This document shows, in pieces, positions 8,890 through 27,433 of a stretch of 36,701 nt of DNA (positions are counted from its first letter, which is position 1; each line of letters starts with the position of its first letter). A model generated the notes under the pieces. The model was not told where the DNA came from and made no database searches. It saw only the letters and a program-made list of their open reading frames with translations. Position numbers and translations under genes: made by a program. Origin of the DNA: Lysobacterales bacterium (lineage in GTDB: Bacteria; Pseudomonadota; Gammaproteobacteria; Xanthomonadales; SZUA-36); assembly GCA_013042835.1 (NCBI GenBank), contig JABDPJ010000226.1:1-36701 (forward strand), read 5' to 3'.

Positions 8890-9891
8890 TCAGGGCCGCA
8901 CGCTGTTAAGCCCGACAAAACTGCCGCCGTTGTCCTCAGCCAGTTTTCTCATCAACGCCGCGTAACGTACGGCATTGATGGACAGGCGGCTGCCGCCAAA
9001 CTGCACCGGAAACCCCACGGTATGGATACGCACCCGGCGATTACCGGAACTGTCGGCACGGTTGAGCCGCTCCACCGTGTCGACCACGGCCTGGATGGAA
9101 CCGCTGGCAAAATCATCTCCAAGGACGTAGAGGCTGATTTTCTTGTCCTTCGAGTAAAAACGTCGTATGGCGGCCTCGATGCCCTCCACCGGGCTGGAAT
9201 TGGAAAAGGGGAACCAACTCGAGAGCCGCCTGACAATGGCCTCACGGCGGGCTGGCGTATCGGGAATCCACTGTCCCCTGTACTGCGAGTACATGTAGTC
9301 ACCCATGTCGTTCATGACCTGGATACCCTTGACGCGTGGATAAATTTCAAGGATTTCCTGAACTTTTCTCAACACCATGCTCCAGGCGCCCTGTCCCATG
9401 GAACCGGAAGTGTCAATGATGAACATGATATATTCGCTGTCCACAGGAACCCCGCCAATCGGGCTGTCCGGCGTCCGCCGGACGCTCAGACCAGACAGCC
9501 GTTTGACCTCCTCACTGAGGGTTTGCTGAGCCACCGCCAACTGGTTTTCAATGATGGTCTGCGCCTCGTGCTCATTGCGCGTGGCGTCGTGTTCCCCGCG
9601 CACCAGTGACAGATCGCCTTTGAGGCGTGCCAGTTTTTCCCGGTGCCGGGAAAGCTGCTCCTGTTGCTCCGTCAGGTCGCGGTTCAACACGGTGGTTTCA
9701 CCACGGATACGGTAAATTTCAAGCTCCAGCCGCTGAACCAGCCCGGTGAGGTCGACCGCCAGCTTTTCGATCACGCGAGGTTCGGATATCTGGATGATGA
9801 CCAGCAGCAGGATAATCGCGCCAAAACCACAGGAGACCACGTCGAGAAATGACATGTTGAAAATATCCACCTCACGACGGCGCTTGCTCAC
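8890..9891 (-). CDS. vWA-domain protein with N-terminal ExbD/TolR-like TM anchor and coiled coil
   Basis: MIDAS 'IMFIIDTSGSMGQGAWS'; N-terminal 'VDIFNMSFLDVVSCGFGAIILLLVII'; GTG start overlaps the upstream TGA by 4 nt. Confidence 0.8.
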   Translation of the reverse strand: MSKRRREVDIFNMSFLDVVSCGFGAIILLLVIIQISEPRVIEKLAVDLTGLVQRLELEIYRIRGETTVLNRDLTEQQEQLSRHREKLARLKGDLSLVRGEHDATRNEHEAQTIIENQLAVAQQTLSEEVKRLSGLSVRRTPDSPIGGVPVDSEYIMFIIDTSGSMGQGAWSMVLRKVQEILEIYPRVKGIQVMNDMGDYMYSQYRGQWIPDTPARREAIVRRLSSWFPFSNSSPVEGIEAAIRRFYSKDKKISLYVLGDDFASGSIQAVVDTVERLNRADSSGNRRVRIHTVGFPVQFGGSRLSINAVRYAALMRKLAEDNGGSFVGLNSVRP

Positions 9892-10979
9892 GGCCAGTCC
9901 CTCGACGGCGTCAGGAAAGAACCGCTGCTTTGAATCGCCAGTTGCCAGAATGCGGCTGCAGCCCAGGCGTCCCCTTCCATCGGCAGCAGAATGGTATTGA
10001 CCGGGATTTTCGCATCCAGCACACGGACCGCCTTTTCGAAGTGGTCAAGCCGTTTGTCCGACGATACCGTCGTTGACAGGGGTTTGCTGCGCCCCTGGGT
10101 GGGCAGGCCGTCAGTAATCAACAGGATGTTATCCGGTCTCGGCTGCAGTGCCTTGACCACCGAAAATGCATGATAAAGACTCGTTCCACCGGCCGGGGCG
10201 AGCTCACGTAAGGCATTGACGGCGCCATCCACGTCGGTACGGGTGGAAGCCTGCAGCCACTTGCCATCGGAACCTGCAAGCGCCGGCCTGGCTGCGGTGT
10301 TAAAAGTGTAAAGCTGGAACTGCGACGTGGCAGGCAGGTTGCTGACCAGCCAATCCGCAGTTTTCAGAGCCCGCTGCCACTTGGGTGCGTTCTTGCGGCT
10401 GGCGTCACTCATGTTGCGGCGCCGGATGATATTGATGATGGTCTCATCCAGCATGCTCGCGGATGCGTCCATCAGGATCAGGATGCGCTCTCCGCCCATC
10501 TTCAGGCCGGTCAGGTACTGGCGGTCACCTTCACCCTTGAACTCGCGTACTTTTTCACCGGCATCGCGGTCGGCAGGCGCCACCGCACCGAGGCGTTTCT
10601 TCTGCTCATCCAGTGACTTCAGGTCGGTGCTCAACTGGTTGATGTGTGCGCGATTTGCCAAGGTCTCCCTGGACATCTGCGCAATTTCAATCTCGAGGTC
10701 TTCGATCGTATTGATGACGCGTTCCGACTGGCCCTGCATCAGGACAATTTCCTTCTCGGTGGCCTGCAGGCTGTTGCGCGCCTCAACCAGGTCCTCTTCA
10801 CCGATGAGTACCTCCTTTTCAAGGCGCACGGTTTCCGCACGCAGATCTGTGAATACCTCGTTGCGTGTTTTTACCGTGTCATGATTGAGAATCAGCACCA
10901 GCAATACCACGGCGCCGAAACCGCAGAACATGATGTCGAGAAAAGACAGTGAAAAGGGTGTGACTTTGCGGCGTGGCAT
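9888..10979 (-). CDS. vWA-domain protein with N-terminal ExbD/TolR-like TM anchor (paralogue of the 8890 gene)
   Basis: MIDAS 'RILILMDASASMLDE', 'AGGTSLYHAFSVV', 'LLITDGLPTQG'; N-terminal 'VTPFSLSFLDIMFCGFGAVVLLVLIL'. Confidence 0.85.
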   Translation of the reverse strand: MPRRKVTPFSLSFLDIMFCGFGAVVLLVLILNHDTVKTRNEVFTDLRAETVRLEKEVLIGEEDLVEARNSLQATEKEIVLMQGQSERVINTIEDLEIEIAQMSRETLANRAHINQLSTDLKSLDEQKKRLGAVAPADRDAGEKVREFKGEGDRQYLTGLKMGGERILILMDASASMLDETIINIIRRRNMSDASRKNAPKWQRALKTADWLVSNLPATSQFQLYTFNTAARPALAGSDGKWLQASTRTDVDGAVNALRELAPAGGTSLYHAFSVVKALQPRPDNILLITDGLPTQGRSKPLSTTVSSDKRLDHFEKAVRVLDAKIPVNTILLPMEGDAWAAAAFWQLAIQSSGSFLTPSRDWP

Positions 10980-10996
10980 GACAGTGCTTGGATTAC

Positions 10997-11791
10997 CTAG
11001 CTTTTCAGTCGACGGATCAGCCAGCTGTCGACGTAGCGCTCGCTATCGAGCACCAGGCGCTCCTGCATCAGCTGGACCTGGTGCACAAAGAACATCAGCA
11101 CAATGCTGATCACCAGGGCAATGAAGGTCGAGTTGAATGCAACACCGAGGCTTGCGGTCACCCCGGTGATGTCACCCTCAACCGCGCGGTGGGCCTGCCC
11201 CAGCGCGTTGCCAATGCCGCGCACTGTGCCGATAAAACCGACCGACGGAATGGCCCAGGCGATATAGCGGATAATCGACAACTCTGATTCCATCCGTTCA
11301 CCTTCAGATTCACAGACGTCGCGGGCCGCCGTGGAAACGTCCTGGACATTGCGGGTCGCGCCAAAGCGCTCGATTGCGGTCAGCAGCGCCCGTGGCAATA
11401 ACCATCCCTCGGCCTGGCCCGGCAATGCCGCCACCCGTTTTGCGATTTCGCGGGTATCCTCCGGCCCGATGGGTAATCCCCCGGGTAACTGCAGCAGGTC
11501 TTCACCAAGCAGCTTCTGTTGCCGGTACACCTCCCTGCCCTTGTAACCGAGTATGGAGAAAGCCCACAGCATCAGCACGAAGCAGGTCTCCTGCTCAAAA
11601 TCCTTAATAACGACAAAGAAGGAGCGCTGTGGAACGTAGTCGGGATCAGCCTGTACATAAGCAGTTTCCTGCTCGATAAAATCACGCGCCTGGGGGCGTA
11701 CCAGAGTGACGTAGACGGCGTGCACCACGATAAAAGCGATGAGCAGTGAAAAAACATGGAAGACCAGTTCTGTGGGAAAGTTTTTCTTCAT
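10997..11791 (-). CDS. MotA/TolQ/ExbB proton-channel family protein
   Basis: 'IIRYIAWAIPSVGFIGTVRGIGNALGQA' and 'GVTASLGVAFNSTFIALVISIVLMFFVHQ', typical TolQ/ExbB TM2-TM3; N-terminal TM. Confidence 0.85.
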   Translation of the reverse strand: MKKNFPTELVFHVFSLLIAFIVVHAVYVTLVRPQARDFIEQETAYVQADPDYVPQRSFFVVIKDFEQETCFVLMLWAFSILGYKGREVYRQQKLLGEDLLQLPGGLPIGPEDTREIAKRVAALPGQAEGWLLPRALLTAIERFGATRNVQDVSTAARDVCESEGERMESELSIIRYIAWAIPSVGFIGTVRGIGNALGQAHRAVEGDITGVTASLGVAFNSTFIALVISIVLMFFVHQVQLMQERLVLDSERYVDSWLIRRLKS

Positions 11792-11800
11792 TTTTTGCCG

Positions 11801-12091
11801 CTAAATGTCGATGGGGAACGCTACTGCGCTGTCGGCTCCAATTTGCTCGGAGGGTTTGAATTCCTTGACCGTATCAGTCCCGGCCTCACCGGCGTCTTGC
11901 TGTTTTTTGGCGGCATCGGACTTTTCATCCACAGGCGCTTGCTTGACCGCCTCCGGTGGAGCCTGGACCTGCTCAGGGTTTTGATTGTCGGCACCGGTCA
12001 GCACCGGCATCAGGAAGACTGTCAGGAGCAATGCCAGCGCTGAGGGCAGTAACAGGAAAGGCCTGGCGTATTTGGGTTTATTTGTCTGCAT
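11801..12091 (-). CDS. Small single-TM periplasmic/membrane protein
   Basis: MQTNKPKYARPFLLLPSALALLLTVFLMPVL, then a hydrophilic tail; embedded in the cluster and overlaps the end of the upstream gene. Confidence 0.6.
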   Translation of the reverse strand: MQTNKPKYARPFLLLPSALALLLTVFLMPVLTGADNQNPEQVQAPPEAVKQAPVDEKSDAAKKQQDAGEAGTDTVKEFKPSEQIGADSAVAFPIDI

Positions 12092-14486
12092 ATCGTGCAA
12101 TCCTGAAGCCTAGGTTGTCACGCGGCCCGCGACTGTAATCGCGGTAACTTAAGCGCAACTCGGTAATACTGCCATCTCGCCAACTGGATCCGCGTACGAC
12201 ATGGTGGTCGCCAACAGCGGGGCCGGCGGGATCCGTCACCAGCCTGTCTGACTGGCCCGGGTAGACCGCATAAAAATCATTGGTCCATTCAGCCACGTTG
12301 CCGCCAAGGTCATGGAAACCCTCCGGTTGCGCGCTGAAACTGCCCACCGGCGCGGAACTGCGGTAACCATCATTATAGCCCTTCACGATGTTTGCCAAGG
12401 TGTCAGCAATCTGCGCATCTGCAAAATTACCCGTAACGGCCTTGGGCGGGTAACCCTCACCCCACGGATAGCGCGCCGCGCCGCTGCGGCCTGAGACGCG
12501 TGCTGCGTACACCCACTCCGCTTCTGTCGGCAGGCGGTAGCCATTGGTTGCAGACGGCAGCGCCTCCATGCGGCCATCCTTTTCACCATAAGCCGGATTC
12601 AGCTTATCCTGCTCGCTCAGCCAGTTGCAGTATCGCGCGGCATCATCCCAACTGACATTGACCACTGGCTGCCGGTCACCGTCAAGTGACACTCCCTCCG
12701 CGGTACCGGACCGGTGCTTACTGTCAAAGCGCCGGAATTCGGCATTGCTCACCTCCCGGCTTGACAGGTAATACGGCCGGGTGAGTTCGACCAGGCGCTG
12801 GCTTTCGTTGGCGCGCCGGCCGGCTTCGCGCCTCGAGGCCCCCATTTGAAACGTTCCAGACGGTTCCAGCAATCGCATTTCCTGCCCGCCGGCGGTCTTT
12901 AACACGGCCGGCCGCGCCTCTTCCTTGACCTGCACCACGGTGTTCAACGCCACATCAACGTTCTGGCTGGTCGCAGTTCGCGGAGTCACCGTCACAGTTT
13001 GCGGCACGTAACCCGGTTTGCTGAACACCAGTTCATGCGGGCGCGTGGTCAGCCTTAAACGCTGGGTGCCGCTGCCGGAACGTTTACCATCCACCGTCAG
13101 ACTCGCATCTGCTGGTATTGAACTCGCGAACACGATGCCGTATTCCGGGGTCAGGTCCACCTGCAGTTCCTTGCGTTCATCCGGCTCGAGGCTGATGGTC
13201 CGTCTGGCAACGCCGTAACCCGGCTTGTTCAATATAAGTTCATGTGGCGTGCCGGAAGCCAGCGTAACGGCGACCGGCGTAGTGCCATGGAAATTGCCGC
13301 CGATGCTCACGGTGGCGCCTTGTGGCCGCGTCTCCAGGGCGAGCGTGCCATCGTTCGGTTCCAGGATGATTCTGTCCAGCTCGACCGGGGTGCCGGCCAC
13401 GAAACTTGCAAGCATGCGCCGGGATTTGAAGCCGGCAAGAGACAGTTCGATTTCCCGCTGACCCTGGATGATCTCCGTGACCAGCGGCGTTTGGCCCACC
13501 GGCTCGCCATCTATATTGACCTGCGCAGTCTCCGGTTCGCTTGTTATAAAAACCTCTGCCCACGCCGGTTGCAGTGCAAGTTGCAGCGCCTGGAGCTCGC
13601 CAAACCCGGCTATTTCCAGCTCCCGGCTCTCGGCCAGGTAACGATCGGTTTCTATCAACAACTCGTAGGTTCCCCGCTGCAGGGAAATGATGTTGTCGCG
13701 CTCAACCGGCAGCTCTGCATCAGCCACAGAGACCCTGACCGGCACGGATGGATCAACCATGATCTGCAAACGACCCGGCAATTCCTCCAACTCAAAATCG
13801 AAAGCCCGGAAACCGCCGGATGACACTTCAAAGCTTTGCCGCAAAGGCTGGTAACCGGCCAGCTCAGCCTCGACGGTATAGGTGCCCGGAACGACCAGCA
13901 TCCTCGACCCGAACGAAACCGCGGGCGGAAATCCGCTGACGGACTGGTCATCTGGCTCAGGGTTGATATTTATGGCCACCGGCGTGGCGAAGATGACAAA
14001 CACGGCGATCAGCGCCAGCAGGCTAAAAAGCGCGAGCAACAGGTAGCGAAGCCTGCGCCGCTTGACGGCTGGCATCGGGTTTGAATTAACCGGGATTACC
14101 CTGGTCGTCTCATCTTCCTCAGGGTCTGGCGGCGGCTCGGCCGGTGGTTGCAATTCCAGTTCGTCACGGCTGTCCCCGACCTTGATGAATACCTGGTCGC
14201 CCTTGATGTCCCACTTCAGAAGCCAGTCGCCCAGTTGCACCCTGTCACCGGATTTCAGCCAGGCGGAGGTATCGATGAACTCATGGTTGTGGAACAACTC
14301 GACATCCGCGTCAGCCGGCTGCAGATAGGCATGGCCATCGGCAAGGGCAATATGAGCCACGACCGTCCCGGCGGGAAGACCCGGCAGGCTGATGTCCGCT
14401 CCGGCACCGCCGATGGCCAGCGGAAAGTCCGCCGCTTCAACACGCCGGACACCGCTCACAGTGTCGATAAAGAAGACCCGCCTCAT
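12078..14486 (-). CDS. Multidomain membrane protein: FHA-like N-terminus, TM helix, tandem PEGA repeats, C-terminal FGE-sulfatase (SUMF1) fold
   Basis: PEGA-like repeats ('AEVFITSEPETAQVNIDGEPVGQTPLVTEI', 'GTLALETRPQGATVSIGGNFHGTTPVAVTL', 'GIVFASSIPADASLTVDGKRSGSGTQRLRL'); FGE-fold 'MGASRREAGRRANESQRLVELTRPYYLSSREVSNAEFRRF', 'PVVNVSWDDAARYCNWLSEQ', 'YRLPTEAEWVYAAR', 'DLGGNVAEWTNDFY', 'DNLGFRIAR'. Confidence 0.85.
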   Translation of the reverse strand: MRRVFFIDTVSGVRRVEAADFPLAIGGAGADISLPGLPAGTVVAHIALADGHAYLQPADADVELFHNHEFIDTSAWLKSGDRVQLGDWLLKWDIKGDQVFIKVGDSRDELELQPPAEPPPDPEEDETTRVIPVNSNPMPAVKRRRLRYLLLALFSLLALIAVFVIFATPVAININPEPDDQSVSGFPPAVSFGSRMLVVPGTYTVEAELAGYQPLRQSFEVSSGGFRAFDFELEELPGRLQIMVDPSVPVRVSVADAELPVERDNIISLQRGTYELLIETDRYLAESRELEIAGFGELQALQLALQPAWAEVFITSEPETAQVNIDGEPVGQTPLVTEIIQGQREIELSLAGFKSRRMLASFVAGTPVELDRIILEPNDGTLALETRPQGATVSIGGNFHGTTPVAVTLASGTPHELILNKPGYGVARRTISLEPDERKELQVDLTPEYGIVFASSIPADASLTVDGKRSGSGTQRLRLTTRPHELVFSKPGYVPQTVTVTPRTATSQNVDVALNTVVQVKEEARPAVLKTAGGQEMRLLEPSGTFQMGASRREAGRRANESQRLVELTRPYYLSSREVSNAEFRRFDSKHRSGTAEGVSLDGDRQPVVNVSWDDAARYCNWLSEQDKLNPAYGEKDGRMEALPSATNGYRLPTEAEWVYAARVSGRSGAARYPWGEGYPPKAVTGNFADAQIADTLANIVKGYNDGYRSSAPVGSFSAQPEGFHDLGGNVAEWTNDFYAVYPGQSDRLVTDPAGPAVGDHHVVRGSSWRDGSITELRLSYRDYSRGPRDNLGFRIARYADK

Positions 14487-15964
14487 ATCGGTTCCTCACA
14501 GCGGATAACCAGGACCGGCTGGTTCGAGCCGGGTTTGAGCGTAACCGTGCGGCGCACGTCACGGTAACCGGGCCTTGAGCCGATAATCGTGTAAGTGCCC
14601 GGCAGCAACTCCAGTTGCTGACTGGTGAACTGTCCGAGGCGGCCGATATGATAGATCAGAACCTGGGTCAGGCCATCAGATTTCAGCGTGATGTTTAACG
14701 GTATCCGGGCGTCGGCAAGCAGGCGCTTCAGGCGGCTGATCTTATCCGCAAGCAGGGGTTCCGAGACCGGTGCGGCGCCGGCCGCAGCAATTAACTCTTC
14801 TGCATTTAGCCTCGGTTCATCTGCAAACAACCGTTCCGGCCGCTCGAGATAGTGGTCGAATTGCCCGTGCAGGCGCACCCTGTCTTCCGCGAAGGCCTTG
14901 CCCTGGCTGGCAAAACCGGCCTGGGGCACTTTGGCCAGCACCTCCCGGTAGGTAGCGGCCGCCCCGCTCCAGTCTTCCTCGCGCTGCTGGCCAGCCGCCT
15001 TTTCGCGCTGGCCGTCCAGCCACAACCTCTGCCGGGTCTGCGCCAGCTGTTGCCGCGTGTTGCGCACCGCCTCGTCACCGGGCTTGAGGCCAGCAGCCTG
15101 GTTCAATGCCACCTCGGCTGCACTTATCCGCTCCTGATCCAACGCACTGAGTGCACGGCTCATTGCCTCCCGGAATGCGAGCTCCGTGATCTGATCACTG
15201 ACGCTATTCAGCGCTGATTCTGCCGGCCCATAGAATTCATCCAGCGCAAGCGCTTGCTGGAAAGCGTCCCGGGCGCCTGACAGGTCGCCGACGGACAGGG
15301 CCAACTCACCAGCCTCCATCCGGTTCAAAACGTCAGGCCGGGCCGTTGCGCGCTGCAAGCCGGCCAATGCGTCTTCATTGTCCGCTTCAATGGACAGGGC
15401 AAGCTCAAAATATGTCCCGGCTGCGCTGCTGTCACCGGCCTGCAGGGCCTGCCAACCCGAATTCAATGCAATCTGAAGGCGCTGCCCACGCTCAGACTCA
15501 AGCAAAACCAGCAGCGTTTTTGCACCTGACAGTACCTCGGCAGACTCGGCAAACCGGCGTTGTCCGAACAGTTCGTTACCGCTGGCTGAAGCGTCCAGTG
15601 CCCGGCTCCATTCCGGTTCGCCCCAGACCGGTGCATTGGCCAGTTCGAGACGGGCCTGAAGACGGAGAAAATCCTGCAGGGACTGCTCCGCGTCTGCCCG
15701 GGCATTCGCCGCCTGCTGTGCCTGCTGTTGAGGCGATACAGCCGCGACCGCCCCGGCCGCGTCCTGGCCAGCTCCGTCACGATCAGTGGACACCATTTTT
15801 GGCAATACCAGCAAGACGGCCAAACCGAGAGTAATGACAACTGCCAGCGCAGCCCAGATTAGGCCACGTCCACCTGTCCTGTCCGCAACGACCACATCGT
15901 CAGCGCCAGGAGGCCGAGACTCGAAACCGGGTTGACCTTGCTTGGGCGGTTCCATGGGATCCAA
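14483..15964 (-). CDS. Single-TM protein with TPR-like periplasmic repeats and C-terminal PEGA domain
   Basis: TM 'GLIWAALAVVITLGLAVLLVLPK', helical repeat region, C-terminal 'LELLPGTYTIIGSRPGYRDVRRTVTLKPGSNQPVLVIRC'; ATGA overlap with the downstream gene. Confidence 0.75.
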   Translation of the reverse strand: MDPMEPPKQGQPGFESRPPGADDVVVADRTGGRGLIWAALAVVITLGLAVLLVLPKMVSTDRDGAGQDAAGAVAAVSPQQQAQQAANARADAEQSLQDFLRLQARLELANAPVWGEPEWSRALDASASGNELFGQRRFAESAEVLSGAKTLLVLLESERGQRLQIALNSGWQALQAGDSSAAGTYFELALSIEADNEDALAGLQRATARPDVLNRMEAGELALSVGDLSGARDAFQQALALDEFYGPAESALNSVSDQITELAFREAMSRALSALDQERISAAEVALNQAAGLKPGDEAVRNTRQQLAQTRQRLWLDGQREKAAGQQREEDWSGAAATYREVLAKVPQAGFASQGKAFAEDRVRLHGQFDHYLERPERLFADEPRLNAEELIAAAGAAPVSEPLLADKISRLKRLLADARIPLNITLKSDGLTQVLIYHIGRLGQFTSQQLELLPGTYTIIGSRPGYRDVRRTVTLKPGSNQPVLVIRCEEPI

Positions 15965-15968
15965 CAGC

Positions 15969-17165
15969 CTATTCGGCGACGGGTGGCAGACCGGTTTCTG
16001 TTGCGTAAATCTGCCTCATCAGTACTCGCCATTGTTCGTACTGGGCTTCGGCAGAGCCCGTCAATTCAATAGTCTCACCCTCGATCTCGAACACCAGTGG
16101 CCGGGTTTCGGACGAAAACGAAAGGCCCAGTTCCTCGATGGATTCGCGGTGTATGACTGCTTCAGAGCGCTTGTCCACACCCGACTTGATTGCCGCGGCG
16201 CCACCCAGAACCATGACATCGCTCAGTGTATCGAGCGCGGGGTCATAACCGTCACCCGCTGCAGCGACAAAAACTGCGCCGACGATCGACGCTACGCCCA
16301 GCAGGGTCCGGTTCAACGCGGCTTTCTCGAGCGCTCTTTGTTTCTCTGATTCATCACTGCGCGCCTTGCGCCACTCGGTATAGGGCTCCCGCATCTCGCG
16401 ATGGAAGTTATCAAAATGGCCATTCAGCGTATCGATCATCATCAGGTCGCGTTCCTTGATAGCCAGCACACGGCCATACATCGGATCATTCGAACTCGGC
16501 AGGTGAACAATGTCGAATTGACCCTCTTCATTGATGTCCAGGTAGCCCGAGAATGCATCGGGAGCAATGTTCGCAGCAAAGCGCAACTCTTCTATCCTGC
16601 GAATGGCCGTAATATCCTCGGGCGTTAAAGTCCTCAAAAACCTGGCAAGATCGTTGGCGACCGTGTTGTAGAGTGGTTGAAACGCGTCCCCGAAAAGCGG
16701 ATTGGCGCGGTAGAAAGAAGCCTCGACGCCATCGCGGTACTGCCTGGTGAACCATTGTCGGCCGCTTGCATCCCGGGCTGATATTTCAAGATCCAACTGC
16801 TCACCATTGGAGGCGATAATCCCGCCCGAGACCAGCAGTTCACCGCCACCGATGTCCCGTGGCACCACGCGCACTGCGCCCCAGTAGCCGGTTTTCTCCA
16901 TGGTGGCGCGCAATTCTTCCGGCATATAACGGGCCTCTGCCTCGCGGATGTCCATGGACAGGCCATTCGCCTTTTTCTCATTTTTTGGCAAAACGCCGGG
17001 GTCGAACACTTCAATCGATACATTGAGTAAGCGGTTCTCGGGAATTTCCGCCGCAGCCTTGTCAAGCGGCACGGCTTCTTCAATATTTCGACGCGGGCCC
17101 GTGCTGCTGCAGGCGATCAACAGTGATAACGACAGGATCGTCAATAAAAGAAAAAAATGTTTCAT
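15969..17165 (-). CDS. Predicted outer/inner membrane lipoprotein, unknown family
   Basis: Lipobox in MKHFFLLLTILSLSLLIAC|SSTG; remainder not recognised. Confidence 0.7.
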   Translation of the reverse strand: MKHFFLLLTILSLSLLIACSSTGPRRNIEEAVPLDKAAAEIPENRLLNVSIEVFDPGVLPKNEKKANGLSMDIREAEARYMPEELRATMEKTGYWGAVRVVPRDIGGGELLVSGGIIASNGEQLDLEISARDASGRQWFTRQYRDGVEASFYRANPLFGDAFQPLYNTVANDLARFLRTLTPEDITAIRRIEELRFAANIAPDAFSGYLDINEEGQFDIVHLPSSNDPMYGRVLAIKERDLMMIDTLNGHFDNFHREMREPYTEWRKARSDESEKQRALEKAALNRTLLGVASIVGAVFVAAAGDGYDPALDTLSDVMVLGGAAAIKSGVDKRSEAVIHRESIEELGLSFSSETRPLVFEIEGETIELTGSAEAQYEQWRVLMRQIYATETGLPPVAE

Positions 17166-17175
17166 GTGAGGTTTC

Positions 17176-18063
17176 TCAGCGAGTGCCCTGTTTGTACTTT
17201 CTATACTCTTCCCAGAGTTTTGCCTTCAGCTCGGGATCGGTTTCCTTTTCAGCCGCCTCGCGCAGCTGGCGGGCCACGACATCGTCATCGCTGCCGTCGG
17301 GAATATCCGCGGGCTGATCCTGGTCGTTGCCGGTATCGCCGGAGCCACTGCTGCTGTCGGACGGCCCTCCCGCGACCGCCCCCCCGGCATTGGCGCCGGT
17401 GCGGTCGCCGGTCGCAGTTTCACCTGAATCCCGGCTTTCGCCTTGTTCTGCGCCTTCGGTACCGTCGGCGTTCTCACCGGCACCCTCTGCGCCGGCACCC
17501 CCGCTTCCATCTCCGGACTCGCCGGATCCGGCGCCTCCGCCATCACCGGAATCTGAATTGTAGTTCGGCGTGTCTGCCTTGATCCGTTCCTGTTCCCGCA
17601 AAAGTTTTTCGTCGTAATCACCCAGGCCCTTGGCCAACTTCTCGTCTAGCGCTGCCACCTGCTCCTGCAGCGTCAGCTCCGACTGGGTGGCGATGTCTGC
17701 TGATTGCGTCACCGGCGGCAGGATGACCGGACATGGCAGGTCCTCTGGAAAAGGAGAACCTGACAGCATTACTGCCTGGCAATCTTCGAATACCCGCCGC
17801 TGCAACCTGGCGACGTAGGCCGCATAGTCGGCCGCCTGCGTTCCACTGAGCCCGTAAAGCTCCCGCTGCGTGCGATAGTCATCCTCCGCTGCCTGTAAAG
17901 CTGCATAATCGAGCCTCAGCTGCTCAACTGATTCCTCGGTAGCCGTCCAGGCAATGATGACCATCAACGACGCCGGCAGGATAACCAGCGAATTAAAGAG
18001 CCGCAGCGCGCTTTTCAATTTTTGGGACATAGGCATTTTACCGGGTGAATCGCATTCTTCCAT
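17176..18063 (-). CDS. Membrane-anchored protein with coiled-coil and acidic Gly/Ser/Asp-rich low-complexity region
   Basis: N-terminal TM 'LRLFNSLVILPASLMVIIAW'; coiled coil 'QEQVAALDEKLAKGLGDYDEKLLREQERI'; low-complexity tract 'GDGGGAGSGESGDGSGGAGAEGAGENADG...'. Start uncertain (ATGs at 18063, 18036, 18030; ORF to 18195). Confidence 0.6.
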   Translation of the reverse strand: MEECDSPGKMPMSQKLKSALRLFNSLVILPASLMVIIAWTATEESVEQLRLDYAALQAAEDDYRTQRELYGLSGTQAADYAAYVARLQRRVFEDCQAVMLSGSPFPEDLPCPVILPPVTQSADIATQSELTLQEQVAALDEKLAKGLGDYDEKLLREQERIKADTPNYNSDSGDGGGAGSGESGDGSGGAGAEGAGENADGTEGAEQGESRDSGETATGDRTGANAGGAVAGGPSDSSSGSGDTGNDQDQPADIPDGSDDDVVARQLREAAEKETDPELKAKLWEEYRKYKQGTR

Positions 18064-18382
18064 TCTGATTATAGCGCCAGTGATTTGCCCCAGTTGTGAA
18101 CAATTGCAACAACTCCCGGCATGGTCAGCAGCGGGGCAAATCCGCAAAACGGGCAGTTTAACGAAGGAATATACACGCCGCGAGTGAATTTGCACTGAAC
18201 AGCGCCGTTGGTACGCTTGTCGACAGCAATGAATTCAAGCGTTTATTGAGTTATTTGACCTACATCATACAGCTTCACCTGCGAATGTGTTTTCCTAGGT
18301 ATGGACGCTCTTAAAGTTCAGTGCTGCAAATCCGCTTCACGATAAACACCTGCAACCCACCGAGCGTGCCTTACGTGGAGAT

Positions 18383-19582: not shown

Positions 19583-20482
19583 TCAGGCTTCCGGTTTGCG
19601 GGCCAGGATCCGCCAGCGCACCGAGCCCGACTCGTTGGGAGTGCCCGGTGCATCCTGGACGGGTTGCCCCTGGCCCGGCGGCGCAAACGTGTCCAGTTTA
19701 AAACCACTGTTTTCGAACAGGCTGCGAATCTCCTGCGCCGTGCGGATCAGGTAGGTCCAGTGAAAACGGCCGTAATCCACGGCCAATTGCCGTGCCAGTC
19801 GCGGCTCGACAGCATGGCTCTGAAACAAGGCTTCTGCCCTGCGCTGGGTGCGGTCCGCCAAAGCCTCCACCTCGGCATCCGAGTACCTGATGATCGGCTG
19901 CCGGTCTTCGGTCCTTGCCCTCTGTGCCGTTAACACGGCACCACCCGGCCGCAGGTTTAACCACCACCTGTCAACCAGCCGCTTGCGCTCGGATTCATTG
20001 AAAAAACACAGGAAAGAATGCGTGCAGATCAGGTCAAACCTCTCAGCAGGCTGGTGGAGCAGGACATTTTCCTTGATGACCTCCACGTCGATTCCAAACC
20101 GCTCTGCGTACCAGCCATTGAGACGTAGCGGGGTCCCGCACAGATCCACCACGGTGACCCGCATATCCTGCAGATATGGCCCGGCAGCGGCCGCGACCCT
20201 CGCCAACAGGGCGTAATCCGCCGCACCTGAAATCAGTATACGCCTCGTACCCGCTTCTATCAGGCGGGACAGCGCGGGCAGGAAAAAGTCGTCATCCGAG
20301 AGTATCGAGTGGAATACACCCAGGTAACGCAACATCTGCCAGGAACCGTGGTACCAGCCGCATCCCGGCTGTTCCCCGTCACCCTGGTCACATTCATGCC
20401 GGGACCACGCCAGGGCGAGCGGCGCACTGTCCTGCAGGGGTTCCCTGGCCACCATTGGTGGGGTGATTTCAGGCCCGTGCAT
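19583..20482 (-). CDS. Class I SAM-dependent methyltransferase
   Basis: 'TRRILISGAADYALLARVAAAAGPYLQDMRVTVVDLCGTPLRLNGWYAERFGIDVEVIKENVL....FDLICTHSFLCFF...RWWLNLRPGGAVL', Rossmann-like MTase pattern. Confidence 0.75.
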   Translation of the reverse strand: MHGPEITPPMVAREPLQDSAPLALAWSRHECDQGDGEQPGCGWYHGSWQMLRYLGVFHSILSDDDFFLPALSRLIEAGTRRILISGAADYALLARVAAAAGPYLQDMRVTVVDLCGTPLRLNGWYAERFGIDVEVIKENVLLHQPAERFDLICTHSFLCFFNESERKRLVDRWWLNLRPGGAVLTAQRARTEDRQPIIRYSDAEVEALADRTQRRAEALFQSHAVEPRLARQLAVDYGRFHWTYLIRTAQEIRSLFENSGFKLDTFAPPGQGQPVQDAPGTPNESGSVRWRILARKPEA

Positions 20483-22748
20483 CTTGCTTCAGCGCGGACT
20501 GAGTGGCCACAAAACGTTGGTGCAAAGTCTGGAATTCCTTGCGGCTGGAAGGCAGTACCACGAGGTCCGAAGCGTCCGCCATATCAAGAATTCTCTCGAT
20601 GGCCTTACCGGCATGGGGTACCACGTCGATCGCGGTTTCCGCCACTCCCGCGGCCATCAGTGCCGCCTGCAAAATCCCAGGTACCTCCTGCGGTGCCCTG
20701 CCGCGGGTGTTGGGATATGACCGGCAGACATAGTGATCGAATTTACCCGCTGCGACCCTGGCCATCTCGGCAATGGTTCCGTCAGTCCGGTCGCCGGCGC
20801 AGGCGATCAACAGCAGGCGCCGGCCCTCTACGTCCAGGCCACTGGTGAACTCCGCCAGTCGCGCCAGTCCGTCGGGGTTATGGGCAAAATCCATTACCGC
20901 GCTGTATGGCAGGTCATGGTAAAGATTCAGTCGCCCGGGGGTATGCTCGAAACCCATCCTGAAGGACTCCATGGCAGTGCACAGGTGAGTTGTGGAAACA
21001 CCGAGCAGATAACCCGCCATCATCGCCGCAAGCGCATTCTCAAGGTTGAATCGGGCGGCGCCGCCAAAGGTGCAGGGCATGGCTGAAACGGCCAGCAATA
21101 CCTGCCTCTGGCCGCCGTTGTAAAGAACCACGTGGTCCTCGCCGTCGTGCTGTTCGACCACGCAGAAAAGGTCCTGCCCGGTGCCATGTTCAGCCAGCTC
21201 ATCCCTGTTCCTGGTCGACGAATACAGGCCTGTCCTGGATGCCGTCATGAATGGAATCATCGACAGGCAATGCGGGTCATCGGCATTTAACACGGCACCG
21301 TCCTGCGCCCTTTCCAGCAGGCTGCGTTTGATTTCAACCATTTCCTCGATGGTCTCAATTTCCCCTTCTGCGAGGTGCTCCTCGGTGACATTCAGGCAGA
21401 TGGCAACATTGCAATGTTGGAAAGCAAACCCGCGTATGGCCATGCCCCGGTGGTGAGCTTCAAGTACGGCGGCATCCACCAGCTTGCTTCCCAGTACCCT
21501 GGCGTGGCCGATAAAAGCGCTCGCGTCACCATGTGAGACGGGCTTGTTATCAAGAAATATACCATCCGTGTTAACCAGCCCCGAGCGGTAGCCTGCTGAC
21601 TGCAAAATGCAGTTCAACATGTGGGTGGTCGTGGTCTTGCCATTGGTCCCTGTTACCGCAACCACCGGAATCTGAGCGCGCGCGGCGTCAGGAAAGAGGC
21701 CTTCGACGAGGTCTCCCGCGACGGCATCGAGCAACCCCGGTTCCCCGTCGCATGGACTGAGAAGTTCATATAAATCCGGGGCAATCTCGAAATCGACCAC
21801 GGCCGCGTCCGCCTGCGCCATCGGCAGGCTGATATCAGTTGCCCGCAGCGTGACGACCAGGGGTGGAAATGCCAGCTTTCTGCTGATAGTGCGTACACAT
21901 TCAATGAACTGCTCGTGAACGTTTTCGGCCAGTTGCCTGCTGCTGCCGGCAGCGTCTGCCAGGGCTGTTACCCTGCCATTGACAACCAGCAGATGGAACA
22001 GGCTGGAAGCCCCGTTTTCCCGCACCTCATCCTGGAGCAGTGGAAACCCCGTTTCCCTGATGAATGCGGCACGTTGATCAGCGTTTCTGAGCAGTGCTTT
22101 CAACTGATCGTCAGCCCTGTCGAGATAGAATGTTCCGTCCAGGATCCTGGTACCTGTGCCGTGGCCAAGACTGAGCAGGCCATTCCGGCGCACCCGGAAC
22201 GCGAAACTCATCTTGCCCGTCAATGGTTCGCGTTCAAGCTGCATGCAGGGAATGTTTCGTTGCCGTGCCGCCCTGATTATGGCTGCGGTTTCGAAAGGCA
22301 GAGCACGTTCCCTGGCAAATCCGCAAAACACGCGATATTGCTGAGCCGGGTTGTGCATGTTTCCCGTGAAAATTCCGACCGCTATTTTAACCGCCGCCAT
22401 GCCGACTTCGGAGTGCTCATGCTCCACGAGGGCGATGCATCGCTTCTTTTCCGAATCACAGGACACGTCAACATAGTCCACCCGGTGGCCATTCTTACGC
22501 TGTAACAAAAGCGCTGTTTGCGCCAGCAGGGAAGCGTACCATTCCATCCGCTGTTCAGGCAGGGGCAACAGTGGAAAGGCCTCCCCCTCAGCCAGGATGC
22601 CGGCGCCAAGCAGTTTCCGCCTGATATCTTCAGGCCGTCCGGGAAATCCGGAACCCGGGTCGTCGGCAAAATCCAGCCGAACTTCCACCACGCGCTTATC
22701 GGCGCGTCTGCTGGGACCAAAAAAGGGAAAAAACAGGATTCGGGGCAT
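20469..22748 (-). CDS. Cyanophycin-synthetase-like Mur ligase with strongly reduced ATP-grasp region
   Basis: P-loop 'VVAVTGTNGKTTTTHM', 'CLNVTEEHLAEGEIETIEEMVEIKRSLLE', 'AVLNADDP', 'PGRLNLYHDLPYSAVMDFAHNPDGLARL' as in CphA Mur domains; 'LLVVNGRVTALAD' as in the CphA ATP-grasp. ORF extends to 22766 with an alternative start. Confidence 0.8.
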   Translation of the reverse strand: MPRILFFPFFGPSRRADKRVVEVRLDFADDPGSGFPGRPEDIRRKLLGAGILAEGEAFPLLPLPEQRMEWYASLLAQTALLLQRKNGHRVDYVDVSCDSEKKRCIALVEHEHSEVGMAAVKIAVGIFTGNMHNPAQQYRVFCGFARERALPFETAAIIRAARQRNIPCMQLEREPLTGKMSFAFRVRRNGLLSLGHGTGTRILDGTFYLDRADDQLKALLRNADQRAAFIRETGFPLLQDEVRENGASSLFHLLVVNGRVTALADAAGSSRQLAENVHEQFIECVRTISRKLAFPPLVVTLRATDISLPMAQADAAVVDFEIAPDLYELLSPCDGEPGLLDAVAGDLVEGLFPDAARAQIPVVAVTGTNGKTTTTHMLNCILQSAGYRSGLVNTDGIFLDNKPVSHGDASAFIGHARVLGSKLVDAAVLEAHHRGMAIRGFAFQHCNVAICLNVTEEHLAEGEIETIEEMVEIKRSLLERAQDGAVLNADDPHCLSMIPFMTASRTGLYSSTRNRDELAEHGTGQDLFCVVEQHDGEDHVVLYNGGQRQVLLAVSAMPCTFGGAARFNLENALAAMMAGYLLGVSTTHLCTAMESFRMGFEHTPGRLNLYHDLPYSAVMDFAHNPDGLARLAEFTSGLDVEGRRLLLIACAGDRTDGTIAEMARVAAGKFDHYVCRSYPNTRGRAPQEVPGILQAALMAAGVAETAIDVVPHAGKAIERILDMADASDLVVLPSSRKEFQTLHQRFVATQSALKQDARA

Positions 22749-22859
22749 GTCGGCTACCTTAATCAAAATCCTGCACAGTATGCAACCATGGACGACGCGG
22801 GCCGGCAGCCCGCCAGCACGGCGTCAGCAGTCGCTGACTCCGGCCATCGAAGCACCCGA

Positions 22860-23777
22860 TCAGGTGACCGCGGCGGTGACGGGACTGTCCTTCGCCGGAA
22901 ATACGGTAGCCATACCGTCCAGGTAGCGCCATTGTGCGTCGATATGGGCATTCAATGCATCGGGGTCACCCCAGATCTGCCTGAAACGGCGCTGCTGCTC
23001 GATATAAGAATCCACGGCCATATTGTCGGGCCGCTGGTTGATCCGGTAACGGCAGCCATCAAATATTTCATAGAGTGGAAACAGGCCGCTACGCACGGCG
23101 ATTTCAACCAACTCGGTGCTCTGATCAGGCTCCGATTTCCAACCGGTCGGACACGGCGACAGCATCAGCAGGAAACGAAAACCCTTGATCGATCTTGCAT
23201 ACCTGATCTTGCGCAGGAAATCCTCGCGGTGACTGATAGACAGGGTTGCGGCATAAGGTACCCTGTGGGCGGCCATAATGGCCATGATGTCCTTCTTGCG
23301 CTCACCTTTGCCCGCAGGTGTGGTGGCGGTTACAGCACCGATCGGAGTCGCACCACTGCGCTGACCGCCGGTATTGCCATAAATCTCGTTGTCGTAGCAG
23401 ATATAGATGATATCTTCATTGCGCTCCGCGGCGGCTGACAAGGTCGCCAGGCCAATATCGTAGGTGCCGCCATCTCCTGCCCAGCAGATCACGGGATTGT
23501 CTATATCATTCATCTTCGCGACCGCGCTGATACCGGTTGCGACGGCCGGCGAACTGGCAAACGTAGTGGCCGTGGTCGGGACACCGTAACCGCTGGTCGG
23601 GAATGCCCCGGCGGTGACGATTCCGCAGCATGACGGGATGACCAGCACCGGCTGTTCGTCGCCCAGCGCCTCGTCCAGCCACTGCAGGCCGATCGACATG
23701 CCACATCCGGCGCAATTGGTATTGCCCGGTCTTAACAGGTGGTTTTCATAAGGTTTAGAGGGTGTGGTCGCAGTCAT
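22860..23777 (-). CDS. porB: 2-oxoacid:ferredoxin oxidoreductase beta subunit (TPP-binding, POR type)
   Basis: 'NTNCAGCGMSIGLQWL', TPP motif 'CWAGDGGTYDIGLATLSAAAERNEDIIYICYDNEIYGNTGGQRSGATP'. Confidence 0.9.
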   Translation of the reverse strand: MTATTPSKPYENHLLRPGNTNCAGCGMSIGLQWLDEALGDEQPVLVIPSCCGIVTAGAFPTSGYGVPTTATTFASSPAVATGISAVAKMNDIDNPVICWAGDGGTYDIGLATLSAAAERNEDIIYICYDNEIYGNTGGQRSGATPIGAVTATTPAGKGERKKDIMAIMAAHRVPYAATLSISHREDFLRKIRYARSIKGFRFLLMLSPCPTGWKSEPDQSTELVEIAVRSGLFPLYEIFDGCRYRINQRPDNMAVDSYIEQQRRFRQIWGDPDALNAHIDAQWRYLDGMATVFPAKDSPVTAAVT

Positions 23778-24946
23778 GCTGTATCATCCTTCCATTCCGG
23801 ATCAGAGGCCGTCGTTCGCTCGCTCATGTCATCAATAATCGCATTGATATTTTCCGGCGTTACGTCGCCGCCGCCCAGGCCAACCAGGTAATCCTGCAAC
23901 AACATATCCGGATCATGGCTGAGCGTGGCAGCGACTTCCTGCCAGAAAATTCCACCGGAACCCGGAGAATGGTTGCGGTCAAGCACCGCTACGCGTTTGG
24001 CCGGACCAATAGCTTCCAGCAATTCCTTGCGCGGAAACGGCCTGAATAACTTGGACCGTATCATGCCTATTTTTTCGCCTTTTTTGCGCCGCTCGATGAC
24101 CACGTTGCGCAGTGTGCGCGCCATCGTGTTGCAGGCAATGAAGATGGTTTCGGCGTCCTCCGTCTCAAAGGCTTCGAGCGCCCCTGCCGGTCGCCGGCCG
24201 AAGATTTTCTCAAACTCGTCACGCGCCTCTTCCAGCACCGTCATGGCATTCTCCATCGAGTGCTGTATCTCCCAGCGATGGTGCTCTGTTTCGCTGGGCC
24301 AGGTCATGCCGCCGAAGGTCGATGGATGGTCGTGTTTGAGCTTGTGCGGAATAACGCACTCCGGCAGAAAGGCATCGACCTGTTCCTGGGTTGGCTCATC
24401 GACTACCATCTGCGTATGTGAAGTGACAAACCCGTCCATGGCGACGATGACCGGCAACATCACCCGTTTGTCTTCCGCAACGCGGAAGGCCATCAATACG
24501 GTATCCTGCAAATCCTGGTGGCTATCGCAATAGAACTGCATCCAGGCCGCGTCGCGCATCATCAGGCTGTCGCCCTGGTCTACCCAGATGTTCCAGGGCG
24601 GGCCCAGCGTGCGATTGACAGCGATCATGACGGTAGGCAGCCGGTAGTAACCGGCCGCAAAGATATTTTCGGTCATGTACGCCAGCCCGTTGGAAGAACT
24701 GGCGGTAAAGGTCCGCGCCCCGGACAAGGCCGCACCAATACAGACACCCATCGCACTATGCTCCGATTCAACCAGCACAATCCGGCCTTTGCTGAACGGG
24801 AAACCGGAAAGGTATTCGATAATCTCGGTTTGCGGCGTAATCGGATAAGCGCCGGCGCAACAACCCCTGGCGTTCCGATTGGCCTCGCCCGCGAGTGCAA
24901 GGGCATGGCCTGCAGCATGGTTACCGGTGGCAAGTGATCTGCTCAT
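23774..24946 (-). CDS. porA: 2-oxoacid:ferredoxin oxidoreductase alpha subunit (POR type)
   Basis: 'GAYPITPQTEIIEYLS', 'ESEHSAMGVCIGAALSGARTFTASSSNGLAYM', 'NRTLGPPWNIWVDQGDSLMMRD'. Confidence 0.9.
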   Translation of the reverse strand: MSRSLATGNHAAGHALALAGEANRNARGCCAGAYPITPQTEIIEYLSGFPFSKGRIVLVESEHSAMGVCIGAALSGARTFTASSSNGLAYMTENIFAAGYYRLPTVMIAVNRTLGPPWNIWVDQGDSLMMRDAAWMQFYCDSHQDLQDTVLMAFRVAEDKRVMLPVIVAMDGFVTSHTQMVVDEPTQEQVDAFLPECVIPHKLKHDHPSTFGGMTWPSETEHHRWEIQHSMENAMTVLEEARDEFEKIFGRRPAGALEAFETEDAETIFIACNTMARTLRNVVIERRKKGEKIGMIRSKLFRPFPRKELLEAIGPAKRVAVLDRNHSPGSGGIFWQEVAATLSHDPDMLLQDYLVGLGGGDVTPENINAIIDDMSERTTASDPEWKDDTA

Positions 24947-24964
24947 GAAAAGCCTCCTTCGGGC

Positions 24965-27202
24965 TTATAGGTTCGTCATGTATATGGCGCCGCGCGGGCA
25001 GGCGGTCATGCAGACGCCGCAACCCTTACAATACTCGAGGTCAAAGTAATAACCCTCTTCTTCACTGCCTTGCCTGAGAATGCCCTCGGGGCAGTACTCA
25101 AGACAGCGGTCACAGGAATTACAGACACCACAGCTTAGACAACGCAGTGCTTCACCGACCGCCCCCGTGCCATCGGGCCCGGCCTGGAAGCCCAGGTGAA
25201 CCTCATCGAAGCAGCGCCGCCTTTCAGCCGGGCTGAGCGTATTGACCTTCTCGGGTGGCAAGTGCTCAAAACGCTGGAACTTGATCGCTTCAGCGCTGGC
25301 AACGGGTTCTTCCGGTGGCGGAAACAGGTCTTCGCCCGACAGCGTGCGATGGATATGCCTGGCGGCCCTGACGCCGCAACCGATCGCGGCTGAGACCGTA
25401 CCGGCGTTGGTCGCAAAATCACCGCCCATGAAAAACGGTGCGCCACTTAAACCAAGCAGTGCTTCGCCTTCCTTGATCACGGATCCCTCGGGCAGAATGG
25501 AAATGTCATGGGACTGCCCCAGTGCCAGGATCACGAGGTCGCAACGCAAGTTGAAACGGGCTTCCGGACTGGTATCGGCGACCGGCCTCGGTCTGCCACT
25601 GGCATCCGGCGGGCCAAGCACCATACCCTGGCAGGTCAACAGGGGCCCCTCATCAGAGTCGGTCAGGCTTACCGGTGCAACGAGTTCATCAAGGATGATT
25701 CCCTCTTCCAGCGCCTGTTCAATCTCTTCATGGATTGCCGGCATCTCGCTGCGGGTCCGGCGGTAGACTACACGCACCTCGCTGGCACCGATCCGCAGCG
25801 CGGAACGGGCGGCGTCCATGGCAGTATTGCCTCCGCCGATGACGATGACGCGCTGGCCATCCAGGCGTTGGTTGCCCTGGCGTACCTGCTCGAGAAAATG
25901 CAATCCCTGTACCGGCTCTGCCGATGCACTATTACCGAGGTCCAGGTCACTCACATTCTGCAATCCGGTGGCCACAAAGACCGCCTGGTATTCGCGGCTC
26001 AGGCGCAACATGTCTTCGCGCCTCAGCTGGCAACCCGTATGCGGTGCAATATCGTATTGCAGGATGTAGTCAATTTCTTCATCCAGCACGTCGCGCGGCA
26101 GGCGGTAGGCCGGAATACCGGTGCGCATGACACCACCCAGTTCGTCACCTGCCTCGTATAGCGATACCGGATAACCCAGTTTTGCCAGCTGGTAAGCCGT
26201 GCTGAGCCCTGCCGGTCCGGAACCCACCACCGCGACTTTCTCTTGCCTCGATGAGCGGTTGGGTGCAGTCCGCACGCCAAGTTCAGCTGCGGCACGTTCA
26301 ATTTCCCTGACGTTTACCGACGTGTCGTATTCCGCCCGGTTGCAGGTTTCCATGCACGGCGCGGGACAGACGCGGCCGCAGATGGCAGGCAGCGGCGATG
26401 TTTCGAGTATGATCCCGAGTGCCTTGTCATAGTTTTCCTTGCCGACTGCCGCCACGAACCCCTGCACGTCATTACCGGCGGGACAGACGTGGTTGCAGGG
26501 CGGCGTCAACTGGCGCCGCTCAGGTTTTCGCGTGGCCCAGCTGCCGGTCTTGATTTTTGGCATTCCACCGACGTCGTCATCGAACAAATCGGCAACCCTG
26601 GGCTTGCTGGTTACCTCAGGCGGCTTGACAATTTCGCCCGGAATTTTTTGGGAACGCACCATTTTGTAGGCTTCCCGGGCACAGGTTTTGTTGGTTCCGG
26701 CAAAGTTCAAATGCTCGAGGCCGGCCAGCAAATCCATCAGTGACAGATCCAGTACACGCGCCACTGCGCCCGCCATCGTGGTGTTGACGATCGGCACGGT
26801 GCGGGTACCAAGTCCGTTGGAAACGGCGATACTGGTTGCATCGATCGTCGCCACTTCGCGGCCGGGAAAAAGCTCCTTGTAATCCGTATTGTCATCAGGG
26901 GTATTGACAATAATGGAGCCGCCGTTCTTCAGGGTGGCGTCCATACCCGGCACGATCAGTGTGCGATCCAGCACAATGAGATAATCGGGATTCTGAACCT
27001 GGTTGTGGTTGGTTATTTCGTTATCATCTACGCGGGCAAAGGCCTGAATCGGTGCACCTGAACGCTCAGCAGCATAGACACCGAAGGCCTGCACATACTT
27101 GCCCTTGAGAAAATAAGCCGAGGCAATAATCTTGGCGAGCGTAACGCCGCCCTGCCCTCCACGCCCACAAATTGTAATTTCCATCATCGTGGCAGTTTCC
27201 AT
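24965..27202 (-). CDS. Fusion: 2-oxoacid:ferredoxin oxidoreductase gamma domain + GltD-like FAD/NAD(P)H oxidoreductase + 2[4Fe-4S] ferredoxin (delta) domain
   Basis: Gamma 'MEITICGRGGQGGVTLAKIIASAYFLKGKYVQAFGVYAAERSGAPIQAFARV'; GltD-like 'CNHVCPAGNDVQGFV...ICGRVCPAPCMETCNR', 'KVAVVGSGPAGLSTAYQLAKLGYPVSLYE', 'RVIVIGGGNTAMDAARSALRIGA'; C-terminal 'CLEYCPEGIL...CKGCGVCMTACPRGAI'. Confidence 0.9.
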   Translation of the reverse strand: METATMMEITICGRGGQGGVTLAKIIASAYFLKGKYVQAFGVYAAERSGAPIQAFARVDDNEITNHNQVQNPDYLIVLDRTLIVPGMDATLKNGGSIIVNTPDDNTDYKELFPGREVATIDATSIAVSNGLGTRTVPIVNTTMAGAVARVLDLSLMDLLAGLEHLNFAGTNKTCAREAYKMVRSQKIPGEIVKPPEVTSKPRVADLFDDDVGGMPKIKTGSWATRKPERRQLTPPCNHVCPAGNDVQGFVAAVGKENYDKALGIILETSPLPAICGRVCPAPCMETCNRAEYDTSVNVREIERAAAELGVRTAPNRSSRQEKVAVVGSGPAGLSTAYQLAKLGYPVSLYEAGDELGGVMRTGIPAYRLPRDVLDEEIDYILQYDIAPHTGCQLRREDMLRLSREYQAVFVATGLQNVSDLDLGNSASAEPVQGLHFLEQVRQGNQRLDGQRVIVIGGGNTAMDAARSALRIGASEVRVVYRRTRSEMPAIHEEIEQALEEGIILDELVAPVSLTDSDEGPLLTCQGMVLGPPDASGRPRPVADTSPEARFNLRCDLVILALGQSHDISILPEGSVIKEGEALLGLSGAPFFMGGDFATNAGTVSAAIGCGVRAARHIHRTLSGEDLFPPPEEPVASAEAIKFQRFEHLPPEKVNTLSPAERRRCFDEVHLGFQAGPDGTGAVGEALRCLSCGVCNSCDRCLEYCPEGILRQGSEEEGYYFDLEYCKGCGVCMTACPRGAIYMTNL

Positions 27203-27433
27203 CCTGTTTTCTATGTTCGAATTAGAATGTAACCAGAAAAACTCCGGGCTCGTAACGCTAAAAATCACCCTCAGTGGAACGATACACCCACCGGCTTAGA
27301 CAGGCCTTGACGTTAATCAAGTACAAAGCGTTTAAGCTTGAACAGCCAATCGCCGTTTATGCGTCAAAGACCCGTCAGCACAGGTATCCGCGCCTCGGCT
27401 TTAAGCCAGGCGCGGGTGGTTCCGGGCGATTAG

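Follow-up and report, generated by a model that had tools for sequence, protein, structure and literature searches.

The eight-gene cluster

The DNA considered here is a window of 36,701 nucleotides (nt), i.e., the whole stretch from position 1 to 36,701 of contig JABDPJ010000226.1 (assembly GCA_013042835.1) of a Lysobacterales bacterium, in which eight minus-strand open reading frames are packed by overlaps and short gaps between positions 8890 and 18063. In transcriptional order they code for an exported low-complexity protein (17176-18063), a lipoprotein of 398 amino acids (aa) (15969-17165), a TPR-PEGA protein (14483-15964), an 802-aa protein with a domain of the formylglycine-generating enzyme (FGE) fold (12078-14486), a small membrane or exported protein (the 99-aa protein, 11801-12091), a MotA/TolQ/ExbB-family channel of 264 aa (10997-11791), and two proteins with von Willebrand factor A (vWA) domains, vWA_A (363 aa, 9888-10979) and vWA_B (333 aa, 8890-9891). 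Their positions bear out the original prediction, including the 4-nt overlaps at 9888-9891 and 14483-14486; at the other junctions the genes are separated by 4, 9, 10 and 17 nt or, in one case, overlap by about 14 nt, the small protein gene (ATG 12091, TTG 12100 being possible) starting inside the 3' end of the FGE gene that precedes it. The start of the TPR-PEGA gene is TTG 15964 or ATG 15955, and that of the 5'-most gene is uncertain, with ATG at 18063, positions 18036 or 18030 better suiting a signal sequence, and a possible GTG at 18195.

With respect to domain content, Pfam assigns the channel to MotA_ExbB (E = 1.4e-14), vWA_A to VWA_2 (E = 3.6e-6), vWA_B to VWA_2 below the gathering cut-off (E = 1.2e-3), the 802-aa protein to FGE (E = 4.3e-41) and PEGA (E = 3.9e-38), and the TPR-PEGA protein, weakly, to both families for which it is named, while three products, i.e., the lipoprotein, the 99-aa one and the 5'-most one, have no Pfam family. 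Together with a profile match to TolQ, this agrees with the channel class proposed originally. The eight genes have no Pfam match to OmpA, TonB, ExbD/TolR, a helicase or a nuclease. What had been overlooked are a cytoplasmic FHA-like domain in the FGE protein and the two small exported proteins with conserved tails. Spacing and synteny suggest that the eight genes share a transcript; scans for promoters and terminators in the cluster gave results at the level of shuffled sequence.

Conservation and co-occurrence

A search with the channel in 101 genomes, including that of the window, gave 22 matches that span most of the protein at 53% identity or more, and on all 18 retrieved contigs the other genes of the block keep their order to the extent that the contigs cover them, the small protein being missed by BLAST in some of them. 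A vWA_B profile scan with one genome per species found at least 293 relatives, of which the 80 best, kept for comparison, come from Gammaproteobacteria (Halieaceae, Bowmanella and Marinibactrum among them), Desulfobacterota, Kiritimatiellota, Acidobacteriota, Myxococcota and Verrucomicrobia. All eight genes are present in 43 of the 46 loci whose 5' flank spans 9 kb or more, and neither order nor strand varies among the genes that are present. Since the set is kept across phyla, the cluster is more than a chance neighbourhood.

In line with this, vWA_B and the lipoprotein co-occur nearly perfectly: of 369 gammaproteobacterial genomes, 28 contain the former and 27 the latter, 24 having both and seven only one of them (Fisher's exact test, p = 1.9e-30). 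The evolutionary distances of six cluster proteins correlate at 0.80-0.92 across 50 loci, values which include the shared species history. The set can also be lost: one genome with the lipoprotein only (G283) is complete and at locus L165 (G283:C1:1836001-1856000) has the tail, lipoprotein and TPR genes as broken remnants beside a MoxR-like gene, which was dismissed as a cluster neighbour, being met in this one decayed locus only. In Gammaproteobacteria the cluster can be extended downstream (L109:10990-13893 and about 30 other loci), namely by two more lipoprotein-like genes, seen in 31 loci, and by a gene for an M48-like metallopeptidase, seen in 27.

The predicted motor core

The channel (10997-11791), read as four transmembrane (TM) helices, has two threonines, Thr189 and Thr222, which are invariant in the alignment and also in a distant paralogue. 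Both vWA proteins follow one plan, with a basic N-terminal tail, a single TolR/ExbD-like helix of the form SFLD(I/V)..CGFGA, a coiled coil (about residues 45-138 in vWA_B) and a vWA head. The helix aspartate, Asp17 of vWA_B (codon 9843-9841) and Asp15 of vWA_A (codon 10937-10935), is invariant in 18 and 19 sequences, respectively. The metal ion-dependent adhesion site (MIDAS) of vWA_A is complete, with D171, S173, S175, T266 and D290 all invariant, and the vWA_B head has a MIDAS-like DTSGS with serine in place of the threonine. A sequence comparison of vWA_A with the PDB found nothing.

Because of this N-terminal helix with its invariant aspartate, and because the cluster contains no ExbD, TolR or MotB gene, the vWA pair is most likely the dimeric B subunit, or axle, of a 5:2 motor. 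It is in this point that the original prediction, which missed the helix and in which the channel powers vWA proteins as separate output partners, has to be revised. Williams-Jones et al. (2025, PMC12204202, Fig. 4c,d), with Idiomarina as seed, predicted such a motor from a tolQ-like gene beside a pair of TPH-vWA genes, with AlphaFold3 models that place vWA pairs inside the channel pentamer; these motors are recorded from Proteobacteria and Verrucomicrobia, and no function or phenotype is reported for them. In its testable features the cluster agrees with this published TPH-vWA family, having in common with it a tolQ-like gene beside two unlike vWA genes, the lack of tolR/exbD and an aspartate in the helix of each vWA protein.

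The putative scaffold and the FHA module

The FGE protein (12078-14486) consists of an N-terminal FHA-like domain (about residues 1-105), a TM helix (about 145-166), PEGA-type repeats and a C-terminal FGE-fold domain, and its predicted model has the same succession, beginning with a beta domain (pLDDT, the per-residue model confidence, 86). Foldseek matched it to FGE-fold proteins including PorK of the type 9 secretion system (T9SS), and its best NCBIfam family is GldK at 107.6 bits against a cut-off of 350. The catalytic cysteine pair near the C-terminus is missing in all 32 sequences, which rules out an active enzyme; the domain is therefore a binding or structural one. The TPR-PEGA protein (14483-15964) has one N-terminal TM helix. 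In the lipoprotein (15969-17165) a lipobox with Cys19 precedes an N-terminal alpha/beta domain and long helices; the lack of Asp at +2 in most loci is consistent with a location in the outer membrane, and the predicted structure of the alpha/beta domain is weakly TolB- or LptE-like. Comparison of its sequence with the PDB gave nothing useful.

In 47 of 80 loci there is an extra gene, X, usually between the channel and vWA_A (e.g., L109:7651-8907, and 46 other loci, but not the cluster of the window), the product of which at its N-terminus looks Hsp70-like by eye and by a weak profile match (SSB1, E = 0.26) and carries a C-terminal FHA domain detected by Pfam in seven of 29 members (best 7e-13). 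The FGE protein has the FHA-like N-domain in 20 of 20 loci lacking X and in 6 of 42 loci with X (p = 2.5e-11, the N-domain profile having been built from X-lacking loci, and related loci not being independent). Since profile comparison also matches the FHA domain of X with this N-domain (91.7%), the FHA module appears to move between the two genes. That it is always present, as in these 62 loci, was given up in view of a reduced, divergent form of the cluster in small genomes of Alteromonadaceae (L175, L176, L177 and L180), where both versions seem to be absent; it is therefore a frequent accessory and not a universal part. Elsewhere in the genome of the window (assembly 89% complete) a search for X gave chance-level FHA matches only.

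Two proteins with conserved tails

The 99-aa protein (11801-12091) is made up of a hydrophobic helix, a variable linker and a fixed tail, F.PSE.I..D..VAFPIDI-stop, the last residues of which are coded at 11801-11833. The 5'-most protein (17176-18063) likewise ends in a fixed C-terminal tail, DDDVVARQLREAAEKETDPELKAKLWEEYRKYK, conserved as DDDVVARQLREAA...LWEEYRKYK. Mean pairwise identity is 0.57 in the tail versus 0.10 in the preceding residues of the 99-aa protein, and 0.73 versus 0.12 in the 5'-most protein. The C-terminus P-x-D-I of the small protein was found in 52 of 52 non-redundant loci tested, and in the divergent Alteromonadaceae the protein is a hydrophobic helix plus a tail of about 12 residues ending in FPVDI, FPTNI or LPIDI. 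As the tail pattern has at most one copy per genome, a genome-wide sorting signal was ruled out. By their sequence conservation both tails behave like docking peptides, and they might bind vWA or FGE domains.

A kinase-coupled paralogous cluster

A second cluster in the same genome (L058:2361-14400, contig C201) codes for two vWA proteins with SAIDLFASAxGA helices containing the helix aspartate, an FHA protein, a channel, a further protein with a C-terminal FHA domain and an N-terminus that by eye looks trypsin-like, a Ser/Thr kinase with an FGE domain at its C-terminus and a secreted protein, accompanied by a divergent CHAT-TPR gene; each of the 11 related contigs examined has it, to the extent that these reach. 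Its kinase-TM-FGE protein parallels the FHA-TM-PEGA-FGE protein of the eight-gene cluster, which points to phospho-signalling proteins with a periplasmic FGE domain as recurrent partners of vWA-type motors.

A probable proton-driven envelope machine

Taken together, the eight genes probably, though far from certainly, code for one envelope-spanning, proton-driven machine in which a 5:2 motor with a vWA axle pulls on a scaffold of PEGA, FGE, TPR and lipoprotein parts. Five copies of the channel would form a ring around two N-terminal helices, one from vWA_A and one from vWA_B, the vWA pair would take the place of TolR, ExbD or MotB, and proton flow past each helix aspartate would turn the axle. 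The coiled coils, of about 90-100 residues, may form a stalk that carries both vWA heads into the periplasm, where these would bind and pull the PEGA-FGE and TPR-PEGA proteins anchored in the inner membrane and the lipoprotein of the outer membrane. The two small proteins, with anchor, linker and fixed C-terminal tail, would most probably serve the vWA (MIDAS) or FGE domains as ligands or clutches, and the cytoplasmic FHA-like domain, either in the FGE protein or in the separate Hsp70-like protein, would probably gate the motor via phospho-threonine signalling. The likeliest job would be to move or remodel an outer-membrane component, and force transduction to the outer membrane is the output favoured here. 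The gene set with its domains, conservation and co-occurrence was observed directly, and stoichiometry, rotation, contacts, gating and output of the motor are all what we infer.

In favour of this interpretation are the TolQ-like channel with its conserved pore threonines, the invariant helix aspartate in both vWA proteins in a cluster without an ExbD, TolR or MotB gene, and the published models of such vWA pairs inside the pentamer (PMC12204202). Further points for it are the recurrence of the eight genes, their co-occurrence and shared distances, the conservation of both tails next to variable residues, the match of the FGE fold to the track protein PorK, which a 5:2 motor drives, and the kinase-TM-FGE protein of the paralogous vWA-motor cluster. 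The machine powered by proton-motive force from vWA, PEGA, TPR and lipoprotein parts that was originally envisaged is supported, its parts being conserved as a set.

Several points weigh against this interpretation: the literature yielded no experiment on any member of the cluster, the likeness of the lipoprotein to TolB is weak (E = 2.8e-3, TM-score below 0.2), the FHA-like module seems to be missing from the Alteromonadaceae branch, the scaffold half of the cluster is inverted in one myxobacterium outside the 46 loci, and in Verrucomicrobia the set is split, the L120 genome having the channel at another place. The last two, and the fact that adjoining genes need not interact, would suit a motor that merely adjoins an unrelated envelope operon. 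However, in one gammaproteobacterial family (L167, L168), likewise outside the 46 loci, the same gene set is kept with the channel moved 3' of vWA_B, so that from the inverted, split and channel-moved loci gene content is seen to outlive gene order, and presence or absence as well as evolutionary distances are shared among the cluster genes, which makes such an accidental juxtaposition very unlikely.

Known systems and alternative functions

On the best reading the cluster acts like Tol-Pal, GldKLMN or Agl-Glt and is by composition a member of none of them. With Tol-Pal it has a TolQ-family channel and a lipoprotein domain weakly like TolB in common, but TolR, TolA and Pal are absent from the eight genes according to Pfam, as are the ExbD and TonB of the ExbBD-TonB system, and the scaffold is another one. 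Like GldKLMN (PorKLMN) of T9SS and gliding, it combines genes for a motor of the 5:2 type with a partner of the FGE fold; however, the FGE protein here is anchored in the inner membrane and is not a lipoprotein, vWA proteins stand in place of GldM, the GldK score far below the cut-off indicates likeness in fold only, and neither GldN nor a T9SS translocon was found. The FGE protein differs from formylglycine-generating enzymes proper in having the fold without the catalytic cysteine pair.

Agl-Glt of Myxococcus also combines one channel and two unlike B subunits with an FHA-TM protein and TPR proteins, but its AglQ and AglS are of the ExbD type and GltG has a TonB motif (PMC3169522), whereas vWA B subunits, PEGA and FGE are lacking there and the cluster has no Pfam match to ExbD or TonB. 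The correspondence of its parts to AglR/Q/S and GltG/D/E (PMC3169522), and an FGE fold common to gliding-track proteins, could speak for a surface-motility or adhesion machine whose motor would pull along an adhesin on the cell surface, as happens in Agl-Glt or the gliding of Bacteroidota; as neither the conserved block nor its flanks show a recurring outer-membrane beta-barrel, large adhesin or TonB-box protein, we regard this as unlikely. Still less probable is secretion or outer-membrane assembly driven by proton-motive force, with the tails as C-terminal targeting signals and the FGE/PEGA scaffold as docking platform: two exported proteins with highly conserved C-termini, a fold as in PorK of T9SS, and the lipoprotein and M48-like peptidase genes downstream in 27-31 gammaproteobacterial loci would fit, yet the FPxDI tail occurs once per genome and so is no general export signal, and the block contains no outer-membrane channel.

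ZorA of the anti-phage system Zorya is a motor of the same superfamily as the channel, which itself matches ZorA in PADLOC weakly (E = 0.01, all PADLOC matches being weak). However, ZorB, ZorC, ZorD, ZorE, a nuclease or a helicase were not found by Pfam and PADLOC, viral contigs and plasmids gave no match, and the operon is stable across phyla, so that a Zorya-like anti-phage motor is extremely improbable; Zorya and other defence systems were discarded on the PADLOC, viral-contig and plasmid searches.

A more specific version of the proposed envelope machine, of doubtful though not negligible probability, is a distinct class of rotary motor, the axle of which would end in two metal-dependent vWA 'hands' that grip and release the fixed C-terminal tails of the two dedicated small proteins, ratcheting the FGE/PEGA scaffold under cytoplasmic FHA phospho-threonine control. 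If this were true, the class would also include, as its second member, the kinase-coupled paralogue of this genome.

Other genes of the window

At higher positions in the window, a Mur-ligase/cyanophycin-synthetase-like gene overlaps a methyltransferase-like gene at 19583-22766, and three genes at 22860-27268 resemble subunits of 2-oxoacid:ferredoxin oxidoreductases, one of them fused to a glutamate-synthase-like oxidoreductase and a ferredoxin part, all as judged by eye.

Implications

The cluster matches no named system, as had been stated at the outset, with the qualification that its motor core was predicted in 2025. PMC12204202, the only relevant paper found for the full gene composition, treats in its text the motor core only, and the lipoprotein, TPR-PEGA, FHA-PEGA-FGE and tail proteins are not described in that text. 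The wider machine and its job hence seem to be undescribed, and what is new beyond the core are the machine as a whole, the two tail proteins, the cysteine-less FGE domain, the weakly TolB-like lipoprotein, the mobile FHA module and the kinase-coupled paralogue.

Partners are known for only few of the ion-driven 5:2 motors. If the proposed reading is right, it would provide the whole parts list, beyond the motor core, of a widespread envelope machine powered by proton-motive force, with the fixed tails and the vWA metal sites as two sharply testable elements, and it would suggest FGE-fold proteins as recurrent partners of 5:2 motors, common to type 9 secretion and gliding.

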